Shown in pieces: positions 4,418 to 50,978 of a DNA stretch of 55,613 nt (its first letter is position 1; each line of letters opens with the position of its first letter). The DNA is from Symploca sp. SIO1C2 (lineage in GTDB: Bacteria; Cyanobacteriota; Cyanobacteriia; Cyanobacteriales; Coleofasciculaceae): assembly GCA_010672925.1 (NCBI GenBank), contig JAAHFP010000009.1, positions 1 to 55,613 of the forward strand, in the 5' to 3' direction. Made by a program: the position numbers and the translations under genes. The notes below the pieces were generated by a model, which saw only the letters and a list, made by a program, of their open reading frames with translations, made no database searches and was not told where the DNA came from.

Positions 4418-4659
4418 GGCAGATAAGCGAAATAATAAAGTGGACGACTAGCTAAGTATCAAAAACATGGGTCTTCCGTAGTTAGGGCTCTCTAGTACAT
4501 AGGGTGATAAGCTGAGGTTATCATTTCTATATTCCTTACACAGCAAGGATGACAGGAATATATTTTCGAGGAAGCTATCACAAATACCGGAGTTTCCACC
4601 ACAAGTACGGGAGAGCCCATCTAAACCTTGTTGTTTACACGAGCGTGCGATCAGCTTCG

Positions 4660-5040
4660 CTGGTGCCGTAGGCAATCGCTATTGTGTTTTGTTGGATACC
4701 TTGTTGTCTACCTCTAATTTCAGCCTGTTCAATCTGTTCAACTTGCCATTGCGCCTCAAACTCTTAAGTACTCAAGATAATGGAAATAATCTAGTTGGGA
4801 GTTGTTTTGCACCTCTACGACGATTATCTCCGAGTTCCCGGTTTCAGCGATCAGATCTAAACGGTTGGATTTATCACTTTCGGTCTGTTGATTACTCTCA
4901 TTGTCGAGAAGAGTTTTGATGGTGATATCAGTATGTAATAATTCACTTAAAAACCCTTCCAAGACTACATAATTAGCCTTATTCCGCAGCAGCCTTTTGA
5001 TAGCCCAATCAAAACGAATATGTCTCGAAGGCATGGTCAA
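4660..5040 (-). pseudogene. Broken Rpn-family PD-(D/E)XK nuclease (transposase_31-like)
   Basis: The first 90 or so codons (from ATG at 5040) read as the N-terminus of the Rpn/transposase_31 family: HIRFDWAIKRLLRNKANYVVLEGFLSELL, then the nuclease core LDLIAETGNSEIIVVEVQNN. The frame hits TGA at 4756-4758. In another frame immediately after, the typical C-terminal tail resumes (EFEAQWQVEQIEQAEIRGRQ, then QQGIQQNTIAIA) to about 4660. The middle of the protein, over 100 residues in intact relatives, is missing. This is an internal deletion with a frame change, so no functional enzyme is expected. Nothing else in 4418-5304 looks coding. Confidence 0.75.
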
Positions 5041-5084
5041 TATAATGATTTTGCTACTTCTATTTTAGCTAAAGTAGGGAACAA

Positions 5085-5280
5085 GGGAGTAAGTAACGAG
5101 TAACAAGTAACAAGTAACAAGTTTTTTCCCAATTGCCAATCCCCTGTCGCTGAATGTGTTTTTAGTAACCAATCTGGCTCAACACTTATCATCTTCTTCT
5201 ACCTTGCCACTTTGCTCTGTTCCTCCTGCCTCCGAATACCTACCACCTACCACCTGCCACCTACCACCTACAATAGTTAA
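5085..5280. repeat. 7-bp tandem repeats ahead of tatC
   Basis: Spacer with two heptamer arrays: AGTAACA-type units at about 5087-5121 and CCTACCA-type units at about 5238-5272. They resemble the short tandemly repeated repetitive sequences described in cyanobacteria. No promoter is obvious. Confidence 0.6.
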
Positions 5281-6191: not shown

Positions 6192-6962
6192 ATGGTTGCT
6201 TCCCCAGTCACTATTCCCATTCGAACCATAAATCTTTCTCCTGGAAGTCACCTATTAATTGAAGAGGTGTCTTGGGAGCAATACGAATCTCTCCTAAAGG
6301 AATTAGGAGAAGAACGTTGTACTCCTCGGATTAATTACAGTAACGGCATCTTAGAATTCATGTCTCCTTTACCAGCTCATGAAAGACCTCATCGCATCAT
6401 CGGTTACATCGTTACGGCGATTTTGGATGCTCAAGAGCGAGACTGGGAAGATTTTGGTTCCACTACGTTTAAGAAACTAAAGCAGGCTGGACTTGAACCG
6501 GATACCTGTTTTTACATTAAAAATGCTGAACGGGTCAAATCACTTCAACGTATCGATTTAGAAATCGATCCTCCTCCAGATTTAGCAATTGAAGCAGATA
6601 TCATATCAAGTCCGGTGGAGTACTTACACTCTGGTGAGAAGAAGGCAGAGGGCAGAAGGCAGAAGGCAGAAGGGAAGGAAGAAAGTTGTAAGGTAGAAGG
6701 ATATGATAACTGTTTAGGCGGACATGATATCACCTCTAAAACGACACTGGAAGCCGATGAAGCAATCAAAGTACCAGAAGTCTGGATTTTTGCTAAGAAC
6801 AAACTCAAGATCCGGGTTTTGGAGCAGTCTGGCTATGTTGAATCCAGCATCAGTCCCACATTTCCCGATTTAGATGTAGTGGAGATGATTCCCCGATTGG
6901 TGCAGGAGGCATTTACACTAGGAACCAGTAAGATGTTGCGCTCTCTTCGTCAGCAGTTATAG
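6192..6962 (+). CDS. Uma2-family PD-(D/E)XK nuclease carrying an in-frame repeat insertion
   Basis: Uma2 (DUF820) proteins are abundant cyanobacterial proteins with a restriction-endonuclease-like fold and unknown substrate. Here the conserved regions are YSNGILEFMSP (about 49-59), GLEPDTCFYI (100-109), PPPDLAIEADI (127-137) and TSKTTLEADEAIKVPEVWIF (181-200). In relatives the last two are contiguous. Here 43 residues (138-180), rich in KAEGRRQKAEGK, separate them. They are encoded by 129 bp bounded by the direct repeat GATATCA (6597-6603 and 6726-6732). The insert matches the spacer element at 2267-2365. Because 129 is a multiple of three, the frame survives. The insert falls between active-site strands, so activity is doubtful. 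Start ATG at 6192. Confidence 0.85.
   Translation: MVASPVTIPIRTINLSPGSHLLIEEVSWEQYESLLKELGEERCTPRINYSNGILEFMSPLPAHERPHRIIGYIVTAILDAQERDWEDFGSTTFKKLKQAGLEPDTCFYIKNAERVKSLQRIDLEIDPPPDLAIEADIISSPVEYLHSGEKKAEGRRQKAEGKEESCKVEGYDNCLGGHDITSKTTLEADEAIKVPEVWIFAKNKLKIRVLEQSGYVESSISPTFPDLDVVEMIPRLVQEAFTLGTSKMLRSLRQQL
6597..6732 (+). repeat. MITE-like element, family A, copy 2, inside a gene
   Basis: The insert starts ATATCAAGTCCGG and ends GGCGGACATGATAT, imperfect inverted ends, and is flanked by GATATCA direct repeats. The core consists of GGCAGAAGG heptamers. It is homologous to 2267-2365. Confidence 0.65.
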
Positions 6963-8723: not shown

Positions 8724-9112
8724 TAACTTCCTTCTAGACTAACCTCGACCCCTGGAAAATTTGGTTGATACCAATCTATTCTAGAACGACTTCGGCTCTG
8801 AGCCATCATCAACGCTTAGAATCGGGAATCGGGAATCGGGAATCGGGAATCGGGAATCGATAATGGGCAACTTCGGAAGAATTTACTTTCATAACCTGGT
8901 GTTGAACCTTTTTCATCGGGAATAACTCCTGCCTCGGAGCCTTCTGCCTCCGGGTGAACGAAATTGTGGGTGGGATTTCTTGAGCTTTATATCCTAAAAT
9001 TATAAGTTCTCTCTTCTCCCTCAGCTCCCTCAGCTCCCTCAGCTCCCTCAGCTCCCTCAGCTCCCTCAGCTCCCTCAGCTCCCCACCCTTTTTTCGCTCA
9101 TCCCCTGCCTTC
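8724..9112. repeat. Repeat-filled spacer: GGGAATC array, 9-bp array, family I element
   Basis: No gene is seen here. It holds a GGGAATC heptamer array (8823-8859), a CTCCCTCAG 9-bp array of about seven copies (9016-9082), and around that array an element with imperfect inverted ends: GGGTGAACGAAATT at 8952 and CCACCCTTTTTTCGCTCATC ending near 9103. The same two ends occur in inverted order at 12513-12589. Confidence 0.7.
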
Positions 9113-14597: not shown

Positions 14598-14787
14598 ACC
14601 CCTAGCCCCTCCCAGGAGGGGAACCGGAGGAGATGGGGAGACGGGGAGATGGGGGAGACAAAGGAGACAAGGGAGACAAGGGAGACAAGGTGGATATTTC
14701 CAAATGACAAACAACAAACAACAAACAACCAACAACAAATAACCAACAACAAACAACAAACAACAAACAACAAATAACAAATAACAA
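14598..14787. repeat. Spacer palindrome, GGGAGACAA array and AACAAAC array
   Basis: A CCTCCC-AGGAGGGG palindrome (14605-14630) is followed by a 9-bp GGGAGACAA array (14655-14692) and by AACAAAC/AACAAAT heptamers (14705-14785) running to the next start codon. Reverse-strand open frames here encode only low-complexity peptides. Confidence 0.75.
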
Positions 14788-15663
14788 ATGAGAATCACCA
14801 AACTCTGTGCCTTTTCTTTAGGTATTTTCTGTTTGTGCTCTTTCCCAGCTTGTGCTCATCCTCTTCATACTATTCCTCAGAATGAGCAGCCACAGCTAAA
14901 CCAAGAAGGGATATTAGAGGAACTAGCTAAGGCAGATGTGGTGTATTTGGGGGAAACTCACAGCAGTGAGTCAGATCATGAAGCTCAACTGGAAATCTTG
15001 CAAGCACTCTACCAGGACAACCCAAAAATTGCCCTGGGGATGGAGATGTTTCAGCGACCTTTTCAGGAGAAAATTGACCAGTACCTAACAGGGGAAATTA
15101 CTGAAGCTGAGTTAATCGAGCAAACTGAATATGAGCAGCGCTGGGGTTTTCCTTGGGAATACTATGCCCCCCTCCTCCGCTTCGCAAAAGCTAAGCAACT
15201 AAAAGTTTTAGCTTTGAATACTCCCGCTGAAATCACTCGCAAAGTTGCTCGTCAAGGTTTAGCAAGTCTTACTCCTGCTGAAAAGCAATATATCCCACCT
15301 CTGTCGGAAATCAATACGGATAATGCCAGCTACCGTGAGATGATTCAGAAAGTCTATGAAGCTCATGCTCACGCAGGCCATGGTAACAGTGATGGTTTTG
15401 AGCGATTTTTCACTGCGCAGGTTTTGTGGGACGAAACCATGGCTCAGAAGATTGCCCAATTTTATCAAGCTAACTCAGACCACCAAGTAGTAGTAATTGC
15501 TGGTAGAGGTCACATTGTCTATGGCTATGGCATACCTAGCCGGGTAGCAAGACGGATTGAGGATAATCAATTAGTGCAGCGTTCAGTTTTATTTGGGGAT
15601 GCGGTGGATCAACTACCAGATCAAGGGGAGGAAATCGCAGATTACTTTTGGCAACATCAATAA
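14788..15663 (+). CDS. ChaN-family (haem-binding-like) exported protein
   Basis: 291 residues with an N-terminal signal peptide (hydrophobic 5-20, ending FPACAHP, possibly lipidated). The ChaN (DUF399) domain begins at about 40, with ADVVYLGETHSSESDH, ALGMEMFQRPFQ, QTEYEQRWGFPWEYYAPLL, FFTAQVLWDETMA and the final VVVIAGRGHIVYGYGIPSR. In Campylobacter the founding member binds haem and supports iron uptake. Here the catalytic-looking Glu/His clusters are kept, so either haem binding or an enzymatic role is possible. Start ATG at 14788, directly after the repeat array. Confidence 0.88.
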   Translation: MRITKLCAFSLGIFCLCSFPACAHPLHTIPQNEQPQLNQEGILEELAKADVVYLGETHSSESDHEAQLEILQALYQDNPKIALGMEMFQRPFQEKIDQYLTGEITEAELIEQTEYEQRWGFPWEYYAPLLRFAKAKQLKVLALNTPAEITRKVARQGLASLTPAEKQYIPPLSEINTDNASYREMIQKVYEAHAHAGHGNSDGFERFFTAQVLWDETMAQKIAQFYQANSDHQVVVIAGRGHIVYGYGIPSRVARRIEDNQLVQRSVLFGDAVDQLPDQGEEIADYFWQHQ

Positions 15664-20463: not shown

Positions 20464-20515
20464 TTAAGGTCGTACCGTTACAGTGGTGCGTTACGCTGCG
20501 CTAACACACCCTACT
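20464..20515. repeat. Palindromic TGCGTTACGC-type spacer repeat
   Basis: Contains GTGCGTTACGCTGCGCTAAC followed by ACACCCTAC, a palindromic unit typical of cyanobacterial spacers. It abuts the family F element. Confidence 0.5.
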
Positions 20516-20649
20516 GCCGTGACACAGCTAAAATGGTTCATTAGAAAGCTGAGGGAGCTGAGGAAGCTGAGGGAGCTGAGGGAGCTGAGGGAGCTGAGGG
20601 AGATAGGGAGAAAAATCTATTGCACAGTTTTAGGTGGGTCACGGCACTA
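20512..20649. repeat. MITE-like element, family F, complete copy
   Basis: Imperfect inverted ends of about 25 bp: TACTGCCGTGACACAGCTAA at the left and, on the other strand, TAGTGCCGTGACCCACCTAA at the right. The middle is an array of a 9-bp unit (GAGGGAGCT). Single ends of the same type are found near 17000, 38878 and 51078. Confidence 0.7.
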
Positions 20650-20708
20650 CAATAGCTATGATAGGTACTTGATATAATCACAAATAACCAACAACCAATA
20701 ACCAACAA

Positions 20709-21500: not shown

Positions 21501-21518
21501 TTATTTAGGTGTTAGGTA

Positions 21519-21695
21519 AGTGGAACTGGCATCCTGCCAGTAGAGTGTAACTGGCATCCTGCCAGTAGAGTGGAACTGACATCCTGCCAGTAGAGTGGAA
21601 CTGACATCCTGCTAGTAGAGTGGAACTGGCATCCTGCCAGTAGTAAGTGGACCTGGCATCCTGCCAGTAGAGTGGAACTGTTATCCTGCCAGTAG
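21519..21695. repeat. Seven tandem copies of a 25-bp palindromic unit
   Basis: Unit AGTGGAACTGGCATCCTGCC plus AGTAG, with the inner CTGGCATCCTGCCAG forming a near-palindrome. The seven copies carry scattered point changes, and two extra bases lie between copies 5 and 6. No gene; apparent open frames through it are repeats only. Confidence 0.88.
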
Positions 21696-21829
21696 TAGGA
21701 GACAATATCTGTAGGGGCAAAGCATTTGAGCAACAATTTAAGTACATAGAGCCAAATGTACCTATTCAAATGCATTGCCCTCCGACAGTTGGAAAACAGA
21801 CCCTAGCAAATAGACTTATCCAATCGAAT

Positions 21830-28418: not shown

Positions 28419-28429
28419 CGCTGACTTGA

Positions 28430-28616
28430 AAGTAAGGAACAGGGAACAGGAAATAGGGAATAGGGAATAGGGAATAGGGAACAGCAGTGCTCCTACTTTC
28501 ATTACCTGGTGGTGAAAAAATTTTTTCATTGGGACTGCCTCCTGCCTCCTGCCTCCTGCCTTCTGCCCTCTGCCTCCTGCCTCCTGCCTTCTGCCCCCTG
28601 CCTCCTGCCCTCTGCC
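28430..28616. repeat. GGGAATA and TGCCTCC/TGCCTTC heptamer arrays
   Basis: Convergent spacer between the kinase and glmM. There are GGGAATA-type units at about 28450-28482 and CTGCCTC/CTGCCTT units at about 28536-28616, running up to the glmM stop codon. Confidence 0.8.
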
Positions 28617-30092
28617 TTAAGCAACTACTAAGTTTTGTTCCACCACGGTAACCAATTGCGATGTCCACTCCTGAACCAGTTCAGTAGTAGCCGCTTCTAC
28701 CATCACCCGAATAACTGGTTCCGTACCAGAAGCACGTACCAGAATTCTGCCTTGGTCTCCCATTGCGGATTGACCCTGAGCGATCGCATTTTTGAGAGCA
28801 TCACATTCTTCCCAATGTAGGCGGCGCTCCCGGTCTTCTACCCGGACATTGTGCAGTAACTGTGGGTAGGTTTGGAAGCTTTGGTCTACTAGCTTAGTCA
28901 AAGGAACACCAGATTGGCGTACCAAAGAGGCTATATGTAAGGCAGTTAGCAAACCATCACCAGTGAAGCTGTAGTGGTGGCAAAGAATATGTCCTGATTG
29001 CTCACCCCCCAGCATTGCTCCAGTTTCCAGCATTTGAGCCTGAACATATTGATCCCCCACTTTGGTGCGCATAAAGTTGCCACCTAACTGCTGCCAAGCA
29101 CGTTCAAAACCCAAATTGGCCATAACCGTAGCCACAATCAAATCTCCCGGCAGCTTACCCGCCTGACGTAAAGTTTGACCCCAGAAATAGAGAATATAAT
29201 CCCCATCGACAACTCGACCCTGCCCATCTACGGCTAATACCCGGTCAGCATCACCATCGAAAGCAAAGCCAATATCCGCTGAATGCTCCTGCACCGCTGC
29301 GGAGAGGATATCGAGATGAGTCGAACCACAATTGACATTAATGCGATCACCATCTGGTTGGTTGTGTAGGCAGATCACTTCTGCTCCCAACTCAGCAAAT
29401 ACTGGCTCAGCTATCTGCACACAAGCTCCCCAAGCCAAATCCAGTACAATCCGCATACCTCGTAAATCTGTAACCGATTTCAGAGGAGAGTGTAGTGATT
29501 TAATATAGTCGGCAATTAATTCAGGACGGGAATAATGCTTACCCCAGGTATTGGTAGCGAAAGGATTACCAGCGAAACCTCTTAAACCTTCTTCAATTTT
29601 CTTTTGCAACACCGCTGAAAGCTTTGCACCTATTGAGCTAAAGAACTTAATGCCGTTGTCTTCCGGAGGATTATGACTAGCGGAAATCATAACTCCTCCT
29701 ATGGCTTCAGTCGCAGCAGTGAGATAAGCAACACCAGGAGTAGTACATAACCCTAAGTTCCATACCTCCAACCCTGCGGAAGTCAAACCTGCCGCTAGAG
29801 CCATTGCTAGCATATCACCGGAGTTACGGGAATCTTGTCCCATAACCACAGGACCAGGCGCTGATGCTTCCTCCTGTAATACTTTACCTGCCCAAAAACC
29901 AACTTGTAATGCTAAATCTGCACTCAAAAGCTCTCCGGCTCTTCCCCGGATGCCATCAGTGCCAAACAAAGGAGTTTTCGGTAATACCGTCGGATAGTTC
30001 CTAAGGCTAAAATTTTTTGCGGACTTCTGCTGATGTCTCTGGGACTGCTCAACCAAAGTCAAATTCTGATTTTCTATAGGGGATGTAACCAT
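28617..30092 (-). CDS. glmM: Phosphoglucosamine mutase GlmM
   Basis: 491 residues. It converts glucosamine-6-phosphate to glucosamine-1-phosphate for UDP-GlcNAc and peptidoglycan synthesis. [14 protein letters not shown] (43-56), active-site Ser139 in [16 protein letters not shown], the metal-binding [11 protein letters not shown] loop, the sugar-specificity GEQSGH segment and the C-terminal [15 protein letters not shown] phosphate loop are all present. The N-terminus is about 40 residues longer than in E. coli GlmM, a feature seen in cyanobacterial members; a later start is possible. Start ATG at 30092. Confidence 0.96.
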
Positions 30093-30681
30093 AATCTAAA
30101 TTTTCCTCACACAAACACACTCATACGTGAGGGATAATAACACTTTATTCACGTTCTGCTGCTTTGTCATTGATCAAATGTCATAAGTCATTAGCAGCAA
30201 GGACTCTCTCGCTCTACTGAGCCTAACTGCTGCCAGGAAGAGAGGTTATTGGTGGACAGAAGGGGCAATTCTTCTGGGCAGGTTTTTGAAGTAATAAGCA
30301 TTAGAAGGCAGGAGGCAGGAGGGACAAGAGTTTTCTCTGCCTAAAAAGAAGTCAAAAACTACTCATATCAAGGAATTCAGCCGTACCTTTTTATTTTTAG
30401 TTTCAGCAAGAGTAATAAGCGCCTAACGGCGAATTAAGAATTAAGAATTAAGAATTAAGAATTCATTAATTGAATCGCAAAAAAAGGCTGCAAACTAATC
30501 ATATCAAGGTTTTCAGACCTAAATCAGTGTTTTTTAGTTTCTGAAGAGTAATAAGTAATAGTTAATAGGTAATAAGCCAATAGTTCAGGATGGATTACCC
30601 GGTAAAAGAGCAAGGTTTCTGGAGCTAAAAGGTATGATATCTTTGACTAGCTTGGTAAGAAAATCTTTAAAAGACTCTCTT
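30093..30681. repeat. Long spacer with AATTAAG array and an imperfect direct repeat
   Basis: No gene is recognised. AATTAAG units are at about 30431-30463. Two related blocks, about 30355-30415 and 30485-30560, share ACT-ATCATATCAAGG, TTCAG, TTTTTAGTTTC and AGAGTAATAAG in order. The segment AAGCATTAGAAGGCAGGAGG (30299) repeats the sequence after tatC. Confidence 0.5.
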
Positions 30682-33952: not shown

Positions 33953-34277
33953 TTTCCCTTAAATATCCCCGACTTCTTCTTCAAGTTTGTCGAGTAGTCA
34001 TACCCAATCCGGTATCGATATACCTGCTATAACCACATTGTAGAGACGCGCCATGGCGCGTCTCTACAGGGATTTCACGGTTTCTCAAAACGGCTCTATT
34101 GTAACCGGATTTGGTATTACCGGTTCACTACAGAAGTCGAAGATCTAGACTCAGGGCGGGTTTTGTTCCAAAGTTATCTTGAATTGTTCCAGATTATCCC
34201 TAAACCCGCCCCTACATATTTACAAGATTTTTTCCCAATTCTAAATTCTAAATTCTAAATTCTAAATTCTAAATTCT
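33953..34277. repeat. Spacer with families E and C and a TTCTAAA array
   Basis: A perfect 28-bp palindrome lies at 34040-34067 (arms GTAGAGACG). A family C element is at 34153-34215 (AGGGCGGGTTTTG to CCTAAACCCGCCCCTACA). ATTCTAA heptamers lie at about 34236-34276. No gene. Confidence 0.75.
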
Positions 34278-36054: not shown

Positions 36055-36312
36055 GGTGGAGAATTGAGAATTGAGAATTGAGAATTGAGAATTGAGAATT
36101 GAGAATTGAGAATTGAGAATTAGGGAATACGGTATTTACCGCAAAGTGGGTAAATACCACGAACTCTTGAGTTATAAACCAGATCCAAATTTGGGTATCT
36201 AGTGCAGCGCGGCAGAAGTAACTGACCAGTTTGATATCGATATAATCTTTACTATATAAGCATTTTGAATTTTGAATTTTGAATTTTGAATTCCGCGCAG
36301 CGGTACTAGGAC
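36055..36312. repeat. GAGAATT array and family H element, inverted copy
   Basis: GAATTGA heptamers, about nine, lie at 36059-36121. From 36243, TATAATCTTTACTATATAAG, TTTTGAA heptamers and ATTCCGCGCAGCGGTACTAG form the inverted copy of the 23925-24000 block. Confidence 0.75.
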
Positions 36313-36314
36313 GA

Positions 36315-36536
36315 TTACTTGAGACATTCCCAATCCTGTTCTTCAAGCAAGGAACTGACTAAATCTCCTAAAGTTTTACCTTTACCTGCAATCGTAGCAG
36401 AAGGGGTTCGACGCAATAGTTGGGGTTCATTAGTGGAAAGAATGGTTACAATTACATGGGCTTTGGCTACTTTTGGTTCATCTGTTAACCACTGCACTTG
36501 ACCATTTTCGATCATGGCTTCATAGCTGGGAAGCAT
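36315..36536 (-). CDS. Solo antitoxin-like protein, 73 aa
   Basis: Reads MLPSYEAMIENGQVQWLTDE, then a hydrophobic strand HVIVTILS, and ends with IAGKGKTLGDLVSSLLEEQD and the stop. This matches a common cyanobacterial antitoxin pattern in which a short beta domain precedes a C-terminal toxin-binding tail. Intact relatives are normally followed at once by a PIN-type toxin gene. Here the stop is followed by heptamer repeats and no toxin. It is either orphaned or acts in trans. Confidence 0.72.
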   Translation of the reverse strand: MLPSYEAMIENGQVQWLTDEPKVAKAHVIVTILSTNEPQLLRRTPSATIAGKGKTLGDLVSSLLEEQDWECLK

Positions 36537-37201: not shown

Positions 37202-38743
37202 ATGAGCAGTAATCCTCCAGTAAAAATTCTGTTTCTAGCAGCTGATCCGAGTGATGCTGCTCGGTTACGTTTACAGCAAGAGTACCGAGATATTGAAGAA
37301 AAGCTTAAGTTGTCTGAACAACGAGGATTTTTGTTGGAGCTACGATTAGCAGTTCGTACAAAAGACATTATTCAGATATTACTGGATACTAAACCACAAA
37401 TTGTGCATTTTTCTGGGCATGGTCAACAATCTGGTAATCTTTGCTTTGAAGATGAAATAGGCAAAAGCAAGCCCGTAGAGCCTGAGGCTTTGGCATCGTT
37501 GTTTGAATTACTAGCGGATCAAGTTAACTGTGTTATCCTCAATGCTTGTTATTCCGAGAAACAGGCACGCGAGATTGTTAAGCATATCCCATTTGTAATT
37601 GGTATGAGCCAATCCATCAGTGATCCGGCAGCAATTGCCTTCGCTGATGATTTTTATACAGCTTTGGCAGCCAACAAATCGGTTGAAGAAGCTTATAAAT
37701 TTGGTCGTGTGAGGATCCGACTTGAAGGTTTTCCAGAGCATCTCACACCGGTTTTGCTCACAAAAAAAAAAGTAACTAATGCTCCTCAAGGGGATGCTCC
37801 TAATGAAGAGATAGAGAATCAACTGCAAGGAATCAGCCATGATGCCAACCAAGCTAGAAATGCTCAAAACCTCAATCAGCTTGAAGATGCTAAGCAATTG
37901 TGGACGCAAGTATTATCTAAAGCTTCTGCATTACGTATAGAATCTTCTGCATTCGTTACCGAAGCTGAAAAATCCTTACAAGAGATTGCTAAATTACAGA
38001 CAGAGCGCTCTAATAAACAATATAGCTTTTCTCATCAAGATCTGAATTGTGCAAATAGATTAGATTCAATATATTCTGGGCTTAGAGCCGAAGCTAATGG
38101 TACAAAAAAGCAGAAGGCAACCTCTCTTTGGGGAAACACAAGAAGAGAAGGCAAAAGCCAGAAGCCTGTAAAGCGACGTTTAGCAAGATTAGGGTGGGTG
38201 GTTGCAGGAATTTGTTCTACTGTTGTTGCTCTTAATACCCTTGACTTAAGTGAACTAAGCGTCTTTGATAATCTTCAAGATAAGGAAAGCGTCTCTGATA
38301 ATCCTAAAAATGGGGAAAGCATCCCTGAAAGTCCTAAAAATGAGGAAAGCGTCCCTGATAATCCTCAAAAAACAGCAATTAATTTTGTATGTACAACAAT
38401 CAACGATACACCAGTGACGCTTGCCAAATCTGATAAATGGGGAGGTGACACAAGGCAATTTATTCGCTGGGTTAGTGATTATGGTAATTCTGCTGGTTAT
38501 ACACCAGCATTGCGCTGTCAGGAGGTTACCGCGAAATTAAATAAATATTTTGCTGGAGGCGGGCGTTACATCACTTACGGAGTTAAGAATCAACAAAAAG
38601 TAATCTGTCTCACGGATAAGAAGGGTAACGGTTGTATTGAGGATCTTTTTACACTAAGACCTGATGAAGATTCCAAGGCAGCTTTGGAAGACTTATTTTC
38701 ACTTAATGCTCAGAACTTTGCGGGTCGTCCACTTCGTATGTAG
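37202..38743 (+). CDS. CHAT-domain caspase-like protein fused to a COP23 domain through a membrane helix
   Basis: 513 residues. The N-terminal CHAT protease domain (about 5-190) has the catalytic pair His73 (HFSGHGQ) and Cys116 (LNACYSE). A helical region follows (about 200-270). Residues about 329-346 form one hydrophobic helix (GWVVAGICSTVVALNTL) after the basic stretch KPVKRRLARL, so the N-terminus should be cytoplasmic. Four 10-residue repeats (about 353-389; SVSDNPKNGE type) form a spacer. The C-terminus (392-513) resembles COP23, a circadian-oscillating Cyanothece protein: FVCTTINDTPVTL, FIRWVSDYG, GYTPALRCQEV, YITYGVKNQQKVICL, with Cys397, 439, 469 and 478. A protease linked through the membrane to a sensor is inferred. 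Confidence 0.85.
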   Translation: MSSNPPVKILFLAADPSDAARLRLQQEYRDIEEKLKLSEQRGFLLELRLAVRTKDIIQILLDTKPQIVHFSGHGQQSGNLCFEDEIGKSKPVEPEALASLFELLADQVNCVILNACYSEKQAREIVKHIPFVIGMSQSISDPAAIAFADDFYTALAANKSVEEAYKFGRVRIRLEGFPEHLTPVLLTKKKVTNAPQGDAPNEEIENQLQGISHDANQARNAQNLNQLEDAKQLWTQVLSKASALRIESSAFVTEAEKSLQEIAKLQTERSNKQYSFSHQDLNCANRLDSIYSGLRAEANGTKKQKATSLWGNTRREGKSQKPVKRRLARLGWVVAGICSTVVALNTLDLSELSVFDNLQDKESVSDNPKNGESIPESPKNEESVPDNPQKTAINFVCTTINDTPVTLAKSDKWGGDTRQFIRWVSDYGNSAGYTPALRCQEVTAKLNKYFAGGGRYITYGVKNQQKVICLTDKKGNGCIEDLFTLRPDEDSKAALEDLFSLNAQNFAGRPLRM

Positions 38744-47032: not shown

Positions 47033-48115
47033 TTAACCATTGATAGTAGGAGCTTGTAGCGCTACGGGAGCTGCTTCACCTGCTGCCAAGTCTAAGGGGA
47101 AGTTATGAGCGTTACGCTCGTGCATTACTTCAAATCCTAAGTTGGCCCGGTTTAGCACGTCTGCCCAGGTTCCTACTACTCGTCCTTGTGAGTCGATTAC
47201 GCTCTGGTTGAAGTTGAATCCGTTGAGGTTGAACGCCATGGTGCTGATGCCTAAAGCGGTGAACCAGATTCCAATTACTGGCCATGCACCCAAGAAGAAG
47301 TGCAAGGAACGGCTATTGTTGAAAGAAGCATATTGGAAGATTAAACGACCGAAGTAGCCGTGAGCTGCAACGATGTTGTAGGTCTCTTCCTCTTGTCCGA
47401 ACTTGTAGCCGTAGTTCTGGGATTCGCTCTCGGTGGTCTCACGTACCAAGGAGGAGGTTACCAAAGAACCGTGCATTGCACTGAACAGAGAACCACCGAA
47501 TACACCGGCTACTCCCAACATGTGGAAGGGGTGCATTAGGATGTTGTGCTCTGCTTGGAACACGAACATGAAGTTGAAGGTTCCGCTGATTCCCAAAGGC
47601 ATACCATCGGAGAAGCTACCTTGACCTAGAGGGTAGATTAAGAATACGGAGGTAGCAGCTGCAACAGGTGCACTGTAAGCAACGCAGATCCAAGGACGCA
47701 TTCCTAAGCGGTAGCTGAGTTCCCACTGACGACCCATGTAGGAGAAGATTCCGATGAGGAAGTGGAAAACCACCAACTGGTAAGGGCCACCGTTGTACAA
47801 CCACTCATCAAGAGAAGCTGCTTCCCAGATGGGGTAGAAGTGTAGACCAATAGCGTTGGAAGAAGGAACAACAGCACCAGAGATGATGTTGTTGCCATAC
47901 AGCAAGGAGCCAGCAACAGGCTCACGGATGCCGTCGATGTCCACAGGAGGAGCAGCGATGAAGGCAATGATGAAGCAGGTGGTAGCAGTGAGTAGGCAAG
48001 GGATCATCAGAACACCGAACCAGCCTACATAGAGGCGGTTGTTGGTGGAGGTGACCCAGTTGCAGAACTGCTGCCAAACAGAAGCGCTTTCGCGTTGCTG
48101 AAGGGTAGTAGTCAT
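47033..48115 (-). CDS. psbA: Photosystem II D1 protein (PsbA), Gln130 form
   Basis: 360 residues with five membrane helices. Redox and Mn-cluster residues are present: Tyr161 (LIYPLGQGS), Asp170 (SFSD), His190 (QAEHN), His198 (HPFHM), and the C-terminal Glu333/Asp342/Ala344 region ([10 protein letters not shown]). A 16-residue extension (345-360) will be removed by CtpA. Residue 130 is Gln ([11 protein letters not shown]), the feature of the low-light/standard D1:1 form; high-light forms have Glu. Its own promoter and terminator make a monocistronic unit. Start ATG at 48115. Confidence 0.98.
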
Positions 48116-49618: not shown

Positions 49619-50488
49619 ATGCCATTCACTATTGATGCAGCCAGAAATATCTTCCCCGACACTTTAGCAGCTGATGCCGTACCCGCAACCATCGCTAGGT
49701 TCAGCCAACTCAGCGCAGAAGATCAGCTAGCACTAATCTGGTTCGCCTATTTAGAAATGGGTAAAACTATTACTGTTGCTGCCCCCGGAGTAGCTAGTAT
49801 GCAGCTTGCAGAACGAACCATCAAAGACATGTGCGAGATGACTCCTCTAGCACAAAGCCAGGTTATGTGTGATTTAGCCAACCGTGCTGATACACCAATC
49901 AGTCGCACCTACGCTACTTGGACACCAAACCTCAAGCTTGGTTTTTGGTATGAATTAGGGAAGTTGATGGAGCAGGGGAAAATCGCTCCAATTCCTAAAG
50001 GTTACAAGCTTTCCGCTAATGCGAATGCGATTCTTGTAACCATTATCGGCTTAGACCCTGGCCAACAAATTACCGTCCTCCGCAATGCAGTGGTGGATAT
50101 GGGTTACGACATCAACAAAATAAGTGGCTTCCAAAGAGTTAGCGGACCGGTTGTTCCACCCAAAGAAATCTCACAGCGAACTCTGGTTAAGATTGAAGGC
50201 GTAGACAATCCGACGATTAATAGCTACATGAATAACTTGAATGCCAATGATTTTGAGGCATTAATCAAGTTGTTTACCCCAGATGGAGCTTTGCAGCCTC
50301 CATTCCGCCGACCAATTGTTGGTCAACAAGCAGTCTTACAATTTTTCCGTGAAGAATGTCAGAATCTCAAATTGATTCCTGAACGAGGAGTTGCTGAGCC
50401 AACAGATGATGGCTTTACTCAGATTAAAATCACAGGCAAGTGCCAAACACCTTGGTTCGGTGGCAATGTAGGTATGAATATCGCTTGA
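49619..50488 (+). CDS. ocp: Orange carotenoid protein (OCP) ending at a premature TGA
   Basis: Photoactive 3'-hydroxyechinenone-binding protein that quenches phycobilisomes. The N-terminal domain is complete, with Trp41, Tyr44, Trp110 and Arg155. The linker and most of the C-terminal domain are present, with Tyr203 (Tyr201 of Synechocystis), Glu246 (Glu244) and Trp279 (Trp277). The frame stops at codon 290, TGA at 50486-50488, after GGNVGMNIA. In all OCPs that I know this codon is Trp, equal to Synechocystis Trp288, which with Tyr201 hydrogen-bonds the carotenoid carbonyl. One base (TGG to TGA) explains the stop. The remaining 29 codons are intact (next entry). FRP follows. The cause may be real inactivation, sequencing error or readthrough. 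Confidence 0.9.
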   Translation: MPFTIDAARNIFPDTLAADAVPATIARFSQLSAEDQLALIWFAYLEMGKTITVAAPGVASMQLAERTIKDMCEMTPLAQSQVMCDLANRADTPISRTYATWTPNLKLGFWYELGKLMEQGKIAPIPKGYKLSANANAILVTIIGLDPGQQITVLRNAVVDMGYDINKISGFQRVSGPVVPPKEISQRTLVKIEGVDNPTINSYMNNLNANDFEALIKLFTPDGALQPPFRRPIVGQQAVLQFFREECQNLKLIPERGVAEPTDDGFTQIKITGKCQTPWFGGNVGMNIA

Positions 50489-50578
50489 CGCTTTTTACTC
50501 GATCCTGAAGATAAGATTTTCTTTGTGGCGATAGATTTGCTAGCATCTCCCAAAGAGCTATTAAACCTAGCTCGCTAA
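50489..50578 (+). pseudogene. In-frame continuation of OCP after the TGA
   Basis: Directly after the TGA the same frame reads RFLLDPEDKIFFVAIDLLAS then PKELLNLAR and TAA at 50576-50578. This is the complete last beta strand and C-terminal tail of OCP, with no further damage. A full-length product would be 319 residues, normal for OCP. Confidence 0.9.
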
Positions 50579-50602: not shown

Positions 50603-50629
50603 ACGCTCTTGGAAACAGAGCGTTTTTTA
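50603..50629 (+). terminator. Rho-independent terminator between OCP and FRP
   Basis: ACGCTCT (50603-50609) and AGAGCGT (50617-50623) form a 7-bp stem with a 7-base loop, followed by a run of T. It should end most OCP transcripts; FRP may depend on readthrough or its own promoter. Confidence 0.82.
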
Positions 50630-50651: not shown

Positions 50652-50978
50652 ATGCAAGAGCAAGCTCCACAATGGTCAGAGACCGAAAAACAAATAGCTC
50701 GTGAAGCTTTGAGTAAAGCTTACACCAGAGAAACCGAGACTCTGATAACTGAAATTCGCCAAAAAGCCAGTGCCATTACTGAACTCAATGATGTGTGGTC
50801 TTTAAGCGACTATTTAAATGCCAAAAGATACGACATCGACGGTAAGTACGACTATAGAGACTCTACGCCAATTTTTGTTCTCGCCAAATTAATTAAAGAA
50901 GGATGGTTACATGCCGATGAATTAGCAGGTTTAACTCCTGATAAAAGGGCTAAAGTGGCTGCGCTTGCCAGAATGTAA
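50652..50978 (+). CDS. frp: Fluorescence recovery protein (FRP)
   Basis: 108 residues from the ATG at 50652; an upstream TTG would add four. FRP is a dimeric helical protein that binds active OCP at its C-terminal domain and returns it to the orange state. The conserved surface is intact: Trp49, Asp53 and Arg59 in DVWSLSDYLNAKRYDIDGKY, equal to Trp50, Asp54 and Arg60 of Synechocystis FRP. The C-terminal ELAGLTPDKRAKVAALARM is also typical. Nothing is broken here, which contrasts with the stop in the OCP gene. Confidence 0.95.
   Translation: MQEQAPQWSETEKQIAREALSKAYTRETETLITEIRQKASAITELNDVWSLSDYLNAKRYDIDGKYDYRDSTPIFVLAKLIKEGWLHADELAGLTPDKRAKVAALARM

Follow-up and report, generated by a model that had tools for sequence, protein, structure and literature searches.

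The only orange carotenoid protein (OCP) gene that we found in the genome of Symploca sp. SIO1C2 has TGA in place of the codon for a carotenoid-bonding tryptophan, probably as the result of a recent G-to-A point mutation that would leave photoswitching of the protein lost or strongly reduced. OCP is a photoprotective safety valve of photosynthesis that is switched on by light. The best-supported description of this ocp is that of a nascent pseudogene of a known family, with a recent nonsense mutation as the cause. The gene lies on contig JAAHFP010000009.1, in a stretch of 55,613 nucleotides that was analysed as a whole and is called the window below (Table 1).

The ocp frame and its internal stop

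The TGA at codon 290 is the sole in-frame stop ahead of the terminal TAA, and the 29 codons downstream of it translate as RFLLDPEDKIFFVAIDLLASPKELLNLAR, a normal OCP end; the earlier note's description of the frame as otherwise undamaged thus stands. With the TGA read as Trp, 5ui2 (residues 1-317) is the solved structure that matches best, and pairwise alignment places codon 290 on W290 of that protein. Query residues 1-318 also align to residues 1-316 of chain 3mg1_A, which we take to be the Synechocystis OCP, so that residue 290 corresponds to 288 of the chain; both alignments support the earlier assignment of this codon to the equivalent of Trp288. Tyr203, the equivalent of Tyr201, is present and invariant in a 16-row OCP alignment, as are Tyr44 and Trp110, while the W290 of row 1 in that alignment appears solely because the TGA was translated as W. 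Trp288 and Tyr201 are described, in the available text of PMC9909426 and PMC5686206, as hydrogen-bonding the keto oxygen of the pigment and as highly conserved.

Set beside a photoactive OCP1, the gene in the window has the N-terminal PF09150 domain and the expected neighbour, frp, which adjoins ocp here and in the five relatives examined. The C-terminal hydrogen-bonding pair is incomplete, with Tyr203 in place and codon 290 a stop under translation table 11, and so is the NTF2-like domain, whose last 29 codons sit after the stop. That the stop falls on Trp288 of all residues might seem to call for a special explanation, an idea we discarded: the ocp frame offers 29 single-transition routes to a stop without codon 290 and 31 with its two, and a third of them (10 of 31) hit Trp codons.

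Table 1. Features of the window, with positions counted from its first nucleotide.
Feature	Position	Strand	Remarks
ocp (orange carotenoid protein) frame	49619..50578	+	ATG 49619, TAA 50576-50578; 319 sense positions, single internal stop
N-terminal carotenoid-binding domain PF09150	49661..50110	+	intact; 208.1 bits, cut-off 25
TGA replacing Trp codon (Trp288, Synechocystis numbering)	50486..50488	+	codon 290; next base C
C-terminal-domain codons behind the TGA	50489..50575	+	n = 29, undamaged
Terminator-like hairpin between ocp and frp	50603..50623	+	consensus match only; 1 such site, against 1.5 expected from shuffling
frp (fluorescence recovery protein)	50652..50978	+	intact, 108 aa
Dispersed stretches	4478-4623, 4780-5085, 6594-6744, 8940-9110, 14629-14803, 20472-20662		
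Dispersed stretches, further	21502-21699, 28422-28623, 30385-30577, 33993-34124, 36195-36319		

Elsewhere in the window, short dispersed stretches recur as many similar copies (about 75-100% identity) both on the genome's other contigs and in the two same-genus genomes.

Distribution of the stop and of OCP among relatives

Apart from the window's own gene, 109 OCP loci were fetched by OCP similarity (L003-L111). They amount to 97 distinct sequences, some loci having been fetched twice from two collections, or 96 without L029. TGG occupies the position of codon 290 in 108 of them, including those of both same-genus genomes, and the 109th, L029, is frame-broken upstream of the position and unreadable there. 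The premature stop is thus private to the window's genome among those examined. The two same-genus proteins are 93% and 92% identical to that of the window, an agreement that shows the OCP frame to be no chance ORF, and both are encoded by full frames that extend 87 bases beyond the window's TGA and end at the homologous place. As a separate observation, the OCP gene of L029 (G048:C388:4024-4889) switches from one frame to another near codon 250. The genome is 61% complete, and the break may be a fault of the assembly or a second case of loss in nature.

A second OCP copy, which the earlier note had suggested looking for, was found neither by protein nor by domain searches: with the OCP protein as query, the full 8.67 Mb assembly, which is 97.9% complete, gave no second OCP at E-values up to 0.001, and a PF09150 search of the whole assembly at E-values up to 10 gave this gene only, with no helical carotenoid protein. 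Nor was a C-terminal-domain homolog found in the assembly, while the same OCP query gives several such genes in many relatives. By our reading of the search table, the best OCP-like match reaches an E-value below 1e-90 in 38 of 57 genomes (own included). Within the window's family there is such a match in nine of 20 genomes, again including the own genome, and none in the other 11, two of which are less than 90% complete (67% and 88%). Judged by these matches, a missing OCP is ordinary in the family; the 11 genomes suggest that the protein is dispensable there and make its loss plausible. In one genome, two near-identical partial OCP matches (G039:C42 and G039:C40; 70% and 69% identity, residues 46-289) were seen, possibly a duplication or a split assembly.

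Age of the change, and the case for a consensus error

Changes on the window's own branch were counted from four sequences (its own, the two same-genus sequences and the outgroup L033). The window's OCP has accumulated 29 silent and eight missense changes plus the stop (nine non-silent), compared with silent-to-missense counts of 14:3 and 14:5 on the sister branches; downstream of the stop there are two silent changes and one missense. A simple mixture model puts the time since constraint ended at 3.5-5% of the branch (posterior median) and, with 95% probability, at no more than 12-17%, a rough bound that presumes a neutral missense-to-silent ratio of 2.5-3.5. The resemblance to the sister branches bears out the earlier view that the change is recent, and the best reading of the counts is that ocp was under purifying selection until shortly before the stop arose, although as they stand the branch data would fit a young lesion or none at all.

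The neighbouring frp was likewise said to be intact, which its own-branch changes (six silent, one missense) uphold; its family name we assign from its position next to ocp. The known role of FRP is on OCP, and an frp free of decay is thus a point against a mutation that disables its partner. A further such point is that the change concerns one base, in one assembly, of one strain of the species, and that the lack of a second lesion also fits a base error or a tolerated read-through.

It may be, then, that the TGA is a consensus error, or that it comes from a minority allele of a mixed sample, and that the organism's OCP is normal. This is a real if lesser possibility, in keeping with a single-base change private to this assembly, with ocp and frp genes that carry no other damage, and with constraint on ocp not distinguishable from that on the sister branches. 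The remaining sampled sequence, however, looks clean: ocp alone is cut among the 25 window genes with an ortholog, and 150 scored response-regulator domains contain no stop. TGG to TGA, moreover, is a plain transition. The lack of other breaks in the compared genes and domains argues against a poor assembly in general, if not against an isolated error. In our judgement a mutation is about three times as likely as a consensus error.

Genetic code and RNA editing

The earlier note had also allowed for recoding. That UGA is a general Trp codon in this organism has the codon in question as its one item of support, and can be excluded for practical purposes. Release factor RF2 is present (487.6 bits, above the curated cut-off), and TGA ends six of 26 chosen window genes; these were picked from 44 ORFs, with antisense ORFs set aside and the choice confined to genes within the compared stretches. 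Since ORFs are defined by stops, a count of internal stops would be circular, and the proper test is whether the frames of relatives run past the window's stop. In the same-genus comparison 25 of the 26 genes have an ortholog (the exception being the gene at 6192-6962, without one in the same-genus pieces), and the relatives' frames pass the window's stop in ocp only; psbA (47033-48115) and the gene at 37202-38743 were compared in their first part only. Where the relatives have Trp, the window has Trp (TGG) at 206 of 219 aligned positions, and two of the 13 exceptions are codon 290, counted once per relative. Elsewhere in the genome, no in-frame stop was found in 150 response-regulator domains scored out of 189 candidates, or in the ABC-transporter domain rows examined (about 52 of 69, by hand count). 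Thus neither a loss of RF2 nor many in-frame TGAs, the marks of a UGA-to-Trp code, was seen in the genome samples, and recoding at the genome level was rejected on the presence of RF2, on the normal genes that TGA terminates and on the absence of any other interrupted gene or domain from those sampled.

Two features of the compared genes are recorded for their own sake. The window gene at 37202-38743 is one frame of 513 aa, and on contig C1275 of one same-genus genome (G002; L179) there are two similar partial copies of it in separate frames. For the gene at 304-2247, one relative copy (G002, L182) has a stop in the alignment, so the relatives' sequences are not themselves free of breaks.

Another route back to Trp would be A-to-I editing of the mRNA: an inosine at the third base would turn UGA into UGI, which is decoded as precisely this residue. 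The TadA enzyme, however, is described in the available part of PMC12255301 as requiring YTACGAA within a stem-loop. Three of the seven bases differ at the ocp site, including the one before the A (here G), and the local RNA around the TGA is less stably folded than most of its shuffled versions (z 2.17 and 1.05). With both motif and stem-loop lacking, TadA editing was rejected, and we consider the earlier suggestion of an edited base exceedingly improbable.

Possible read-through and a second tRNA-Trp

A different kind of rescue would be translation of the UGA as Trp often enough for the gene still to work, whether the housekeeping tRNA-Trp or a second one in a tRNA array did the decoding. 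We consider this quite unlikely, though constraint on ocp and frp looks unbroken and the second tRNA-Trp has an unusual anatomy. In the portions available of PMC5289835, read-through is described as most frequent at UGA; a following C is associated with more read-through in yeast, UGA-C with ribosome slippage, and misreading of UGA by tRNA-Trp in E. coli with a following A. Around the ocp stop we found no stimulatory downstream RNA element, neither as a fold (z 0.34 for the 75 nt from the stop) nor as an Rfam match at E-values up to 1. Programmed read-through would be expected to leave the in-frame stop conserved in relatives, and the stop is there in none of the 108 readable loci; nor was any other UGA-interrupted gene found among the compared window genes and sampled domains.

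In the housekeeping tRNA-Trp the anticodon stem is 5 bp long and base 24 is A. This Hirsh-type A24 was set aside as a cause of misreading, being the norm here: a search for the tRNA gene gave a match in 36 of 37 genomes, and all 30 loci looked at (the own and 29 of relatives) have A24 together with the 5-bp stem.

Besides its scattered tRNA set, the genome contains an array of 26 tRNA genes (G000:C112:104651-112359; L142:651-8359), similar in kind to the trn operon of Anabaena. Its tRNA-Trp(CCA) has the stem GTGGT/ACCAA, in which the top pair, G27-A43, is open, and so a 4-bp anticodon stem, together with a 7-nt loop, A9 and G24 (positions by our own numbering). These are the features of the 'Blastocrithidia-like' tRNA of PMC13092985: a 4-bp stem open at the top, a 7-nt loop, and neither A9C nor G24A. 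A 4-bp anticodon-stem tRNA-Trp is reported, in the accessible text of that paper, to read UGA; in E. coli, with the top pair opened (C27A) and the tRNA overexpressed, UGA read-through rose about 2.5-fold. An in vitro experiment to which the same text refers saw no read-through from C27A by itself, and the change tested in the paper was C27A, not G27-A43. The 4-bp form is there said to co-occur with the 5-bp form in 62 genomes of a set of 42,109. In the main text of PMC13092985, as far as it is accessible, the words 'cyanobacter' and 'tRNA array' are absent.

An open top pair as the sole irregularity occurs in three of the 26 array genes, compared with one of 42 scattered tRNA genes examined. 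Both same-genus genomes carry the array tRNA-Trp without a single base difference (74 of 74 and 73 of 73 bases; array pieces on G001 C250 and G002 C673), and among 18 array genes compared only those for Trp and Phe are identical in both wherever aligned, most of the others showing some base differences or no alignment. In an array of a more distant genome (G073), by contrast, the stem of the tRNA-Trp is 5 bp long. Since the same tRNA occurs in relatives with an intact OCP, it did not arise for this TGA, and a link between the array tRNA-Trp and OCP is speculative. The 26-gene array of Anabaena, moreover, is normally silent and is induced by translational stress, according to the available text of PMC10272220. 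One could imagine on this basis that OCP synthesis is under control of the state of translation, UGA stopping it normally and a stress-derepressed array tRNA-Trp reading the UGA to give photoactive OCP; we regard this as very improbable, but if true it would make a silent tRNA array the switch of a photoprotection gene.

One other array gene was looked at as a suppressor, a 'Pyl' tRNA with anticodon CTA called by ARAGORN (L142:6141-6214). It was dropped as an amber suppressor because the CTA register pairs badly; a one-base shift gives, by eye, a tRNA-Arg(TCT)-like arm, and the call is probably wrong.

Expected consequences for the protein

We return to the nonsense mutation as the preferred reading. 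A G-to-A transition would have changed the carotenoid-bonding Trp codon to TGA, and most ribosomes would be expected to terminate there, giving a protein of 289 aa that keeps the N-terminal quenching domain but has neither the hydrogen-bonding Trp nor the final 29 residues of the C-terminal domain. Of the stops, UGA leaks most, and a tRNA-Trp that misreads it restores the normal residue, so some full-length OCP probably persists through a small leak. Light-switchable quenching of phycobilisomes would nevertheless be lost or strongly reduced, in keeping with the missing Trp and residues, in an organism that still encodes FRP and phycobilisome proteins (13 PF00502 matches in the genome, two of them within one 1121-aa frame).

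The earlier note had gone further and proposed that the shortened protein could act as a light-independent quencher. This is a variant of the nonsense-mutation reading, compatible with it, and has a basis in print: in the available text of PMC5686206 and PMC9909426, full-length W288A quenches persistently and interacts with FRP, and the helical homolog HCP4 is described as quenching phycobilisomes in that of PMC12059629. The N-terminal domain is intact here, and by analogy with full-length W288A some unregulated quenching by the 289-aa product is conceivable. But W288A retains the final stretch of the C-terminal domain, which the product here would lack, so that an unstable product is at least as likely as a quencher, and constitutive quenching would be costly for light harvesting. 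On balance we think it unlikely that the 289-aa product is itself a functional quencher; a shortened C-terminal domain would more likely make it unstable.

If the change is real, nature has supplied a nonsense allele of a residue that has otherwise been studied through mutagenesis. No backup OCP or HCP was found in the genome, and the allele would show how a phycobilisome-bearing cyanobacterium fares without a photoswitchable OCP. The array tRNA-Trp, common to three genomes of the genus and with the anatomy reported for a UGA reader, may matter more, as it opens the question of array-driven read-through to a direct test; should the TGA prove to be a sequencing error, this tRNA part alone would remain. 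No broken OCP genes turned up in a literature search that was not restricted to OCP and mostly left subscription papers outside; we make no claim to a first report.

Comparison with known systems

The array tRNA-Trp agrees in sequence features with the form described in the accessible text of PMC13092985, and differs in its setting: it sits in a cyanobacterial tRNA array, in a genome that also has a 5-bp housekeeping tRNA-Trp. The OCP itself is closest to the OCP1 and FRP system of the Synechocystis type (5ui2, 3mg1), with which it shares domain order, length, Tyr203 (201), Tyr44, Trp110 and the adjoining frp, and from which it differs in the stop at Trp288 and the last 29 residues that this cuts off. 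OCP-W288A, a purple and persistently quenching laboratory mutant, lacks the same hydrogen-bond donor; it is a full-length substitution, however, whereas the window's chain ends at that point. Finally, HCP4 and HCP5 illustrate, in the literature as far as it was available, that a carotenoid-binding helical domain can quench phycobilisomes without a working regulatory domain. Unlike these proteins, the 289-aa product would retain about 100 residues of the C-terminal domain, and it would owe its form to a nonsense mutation, not to descent from a separate family.
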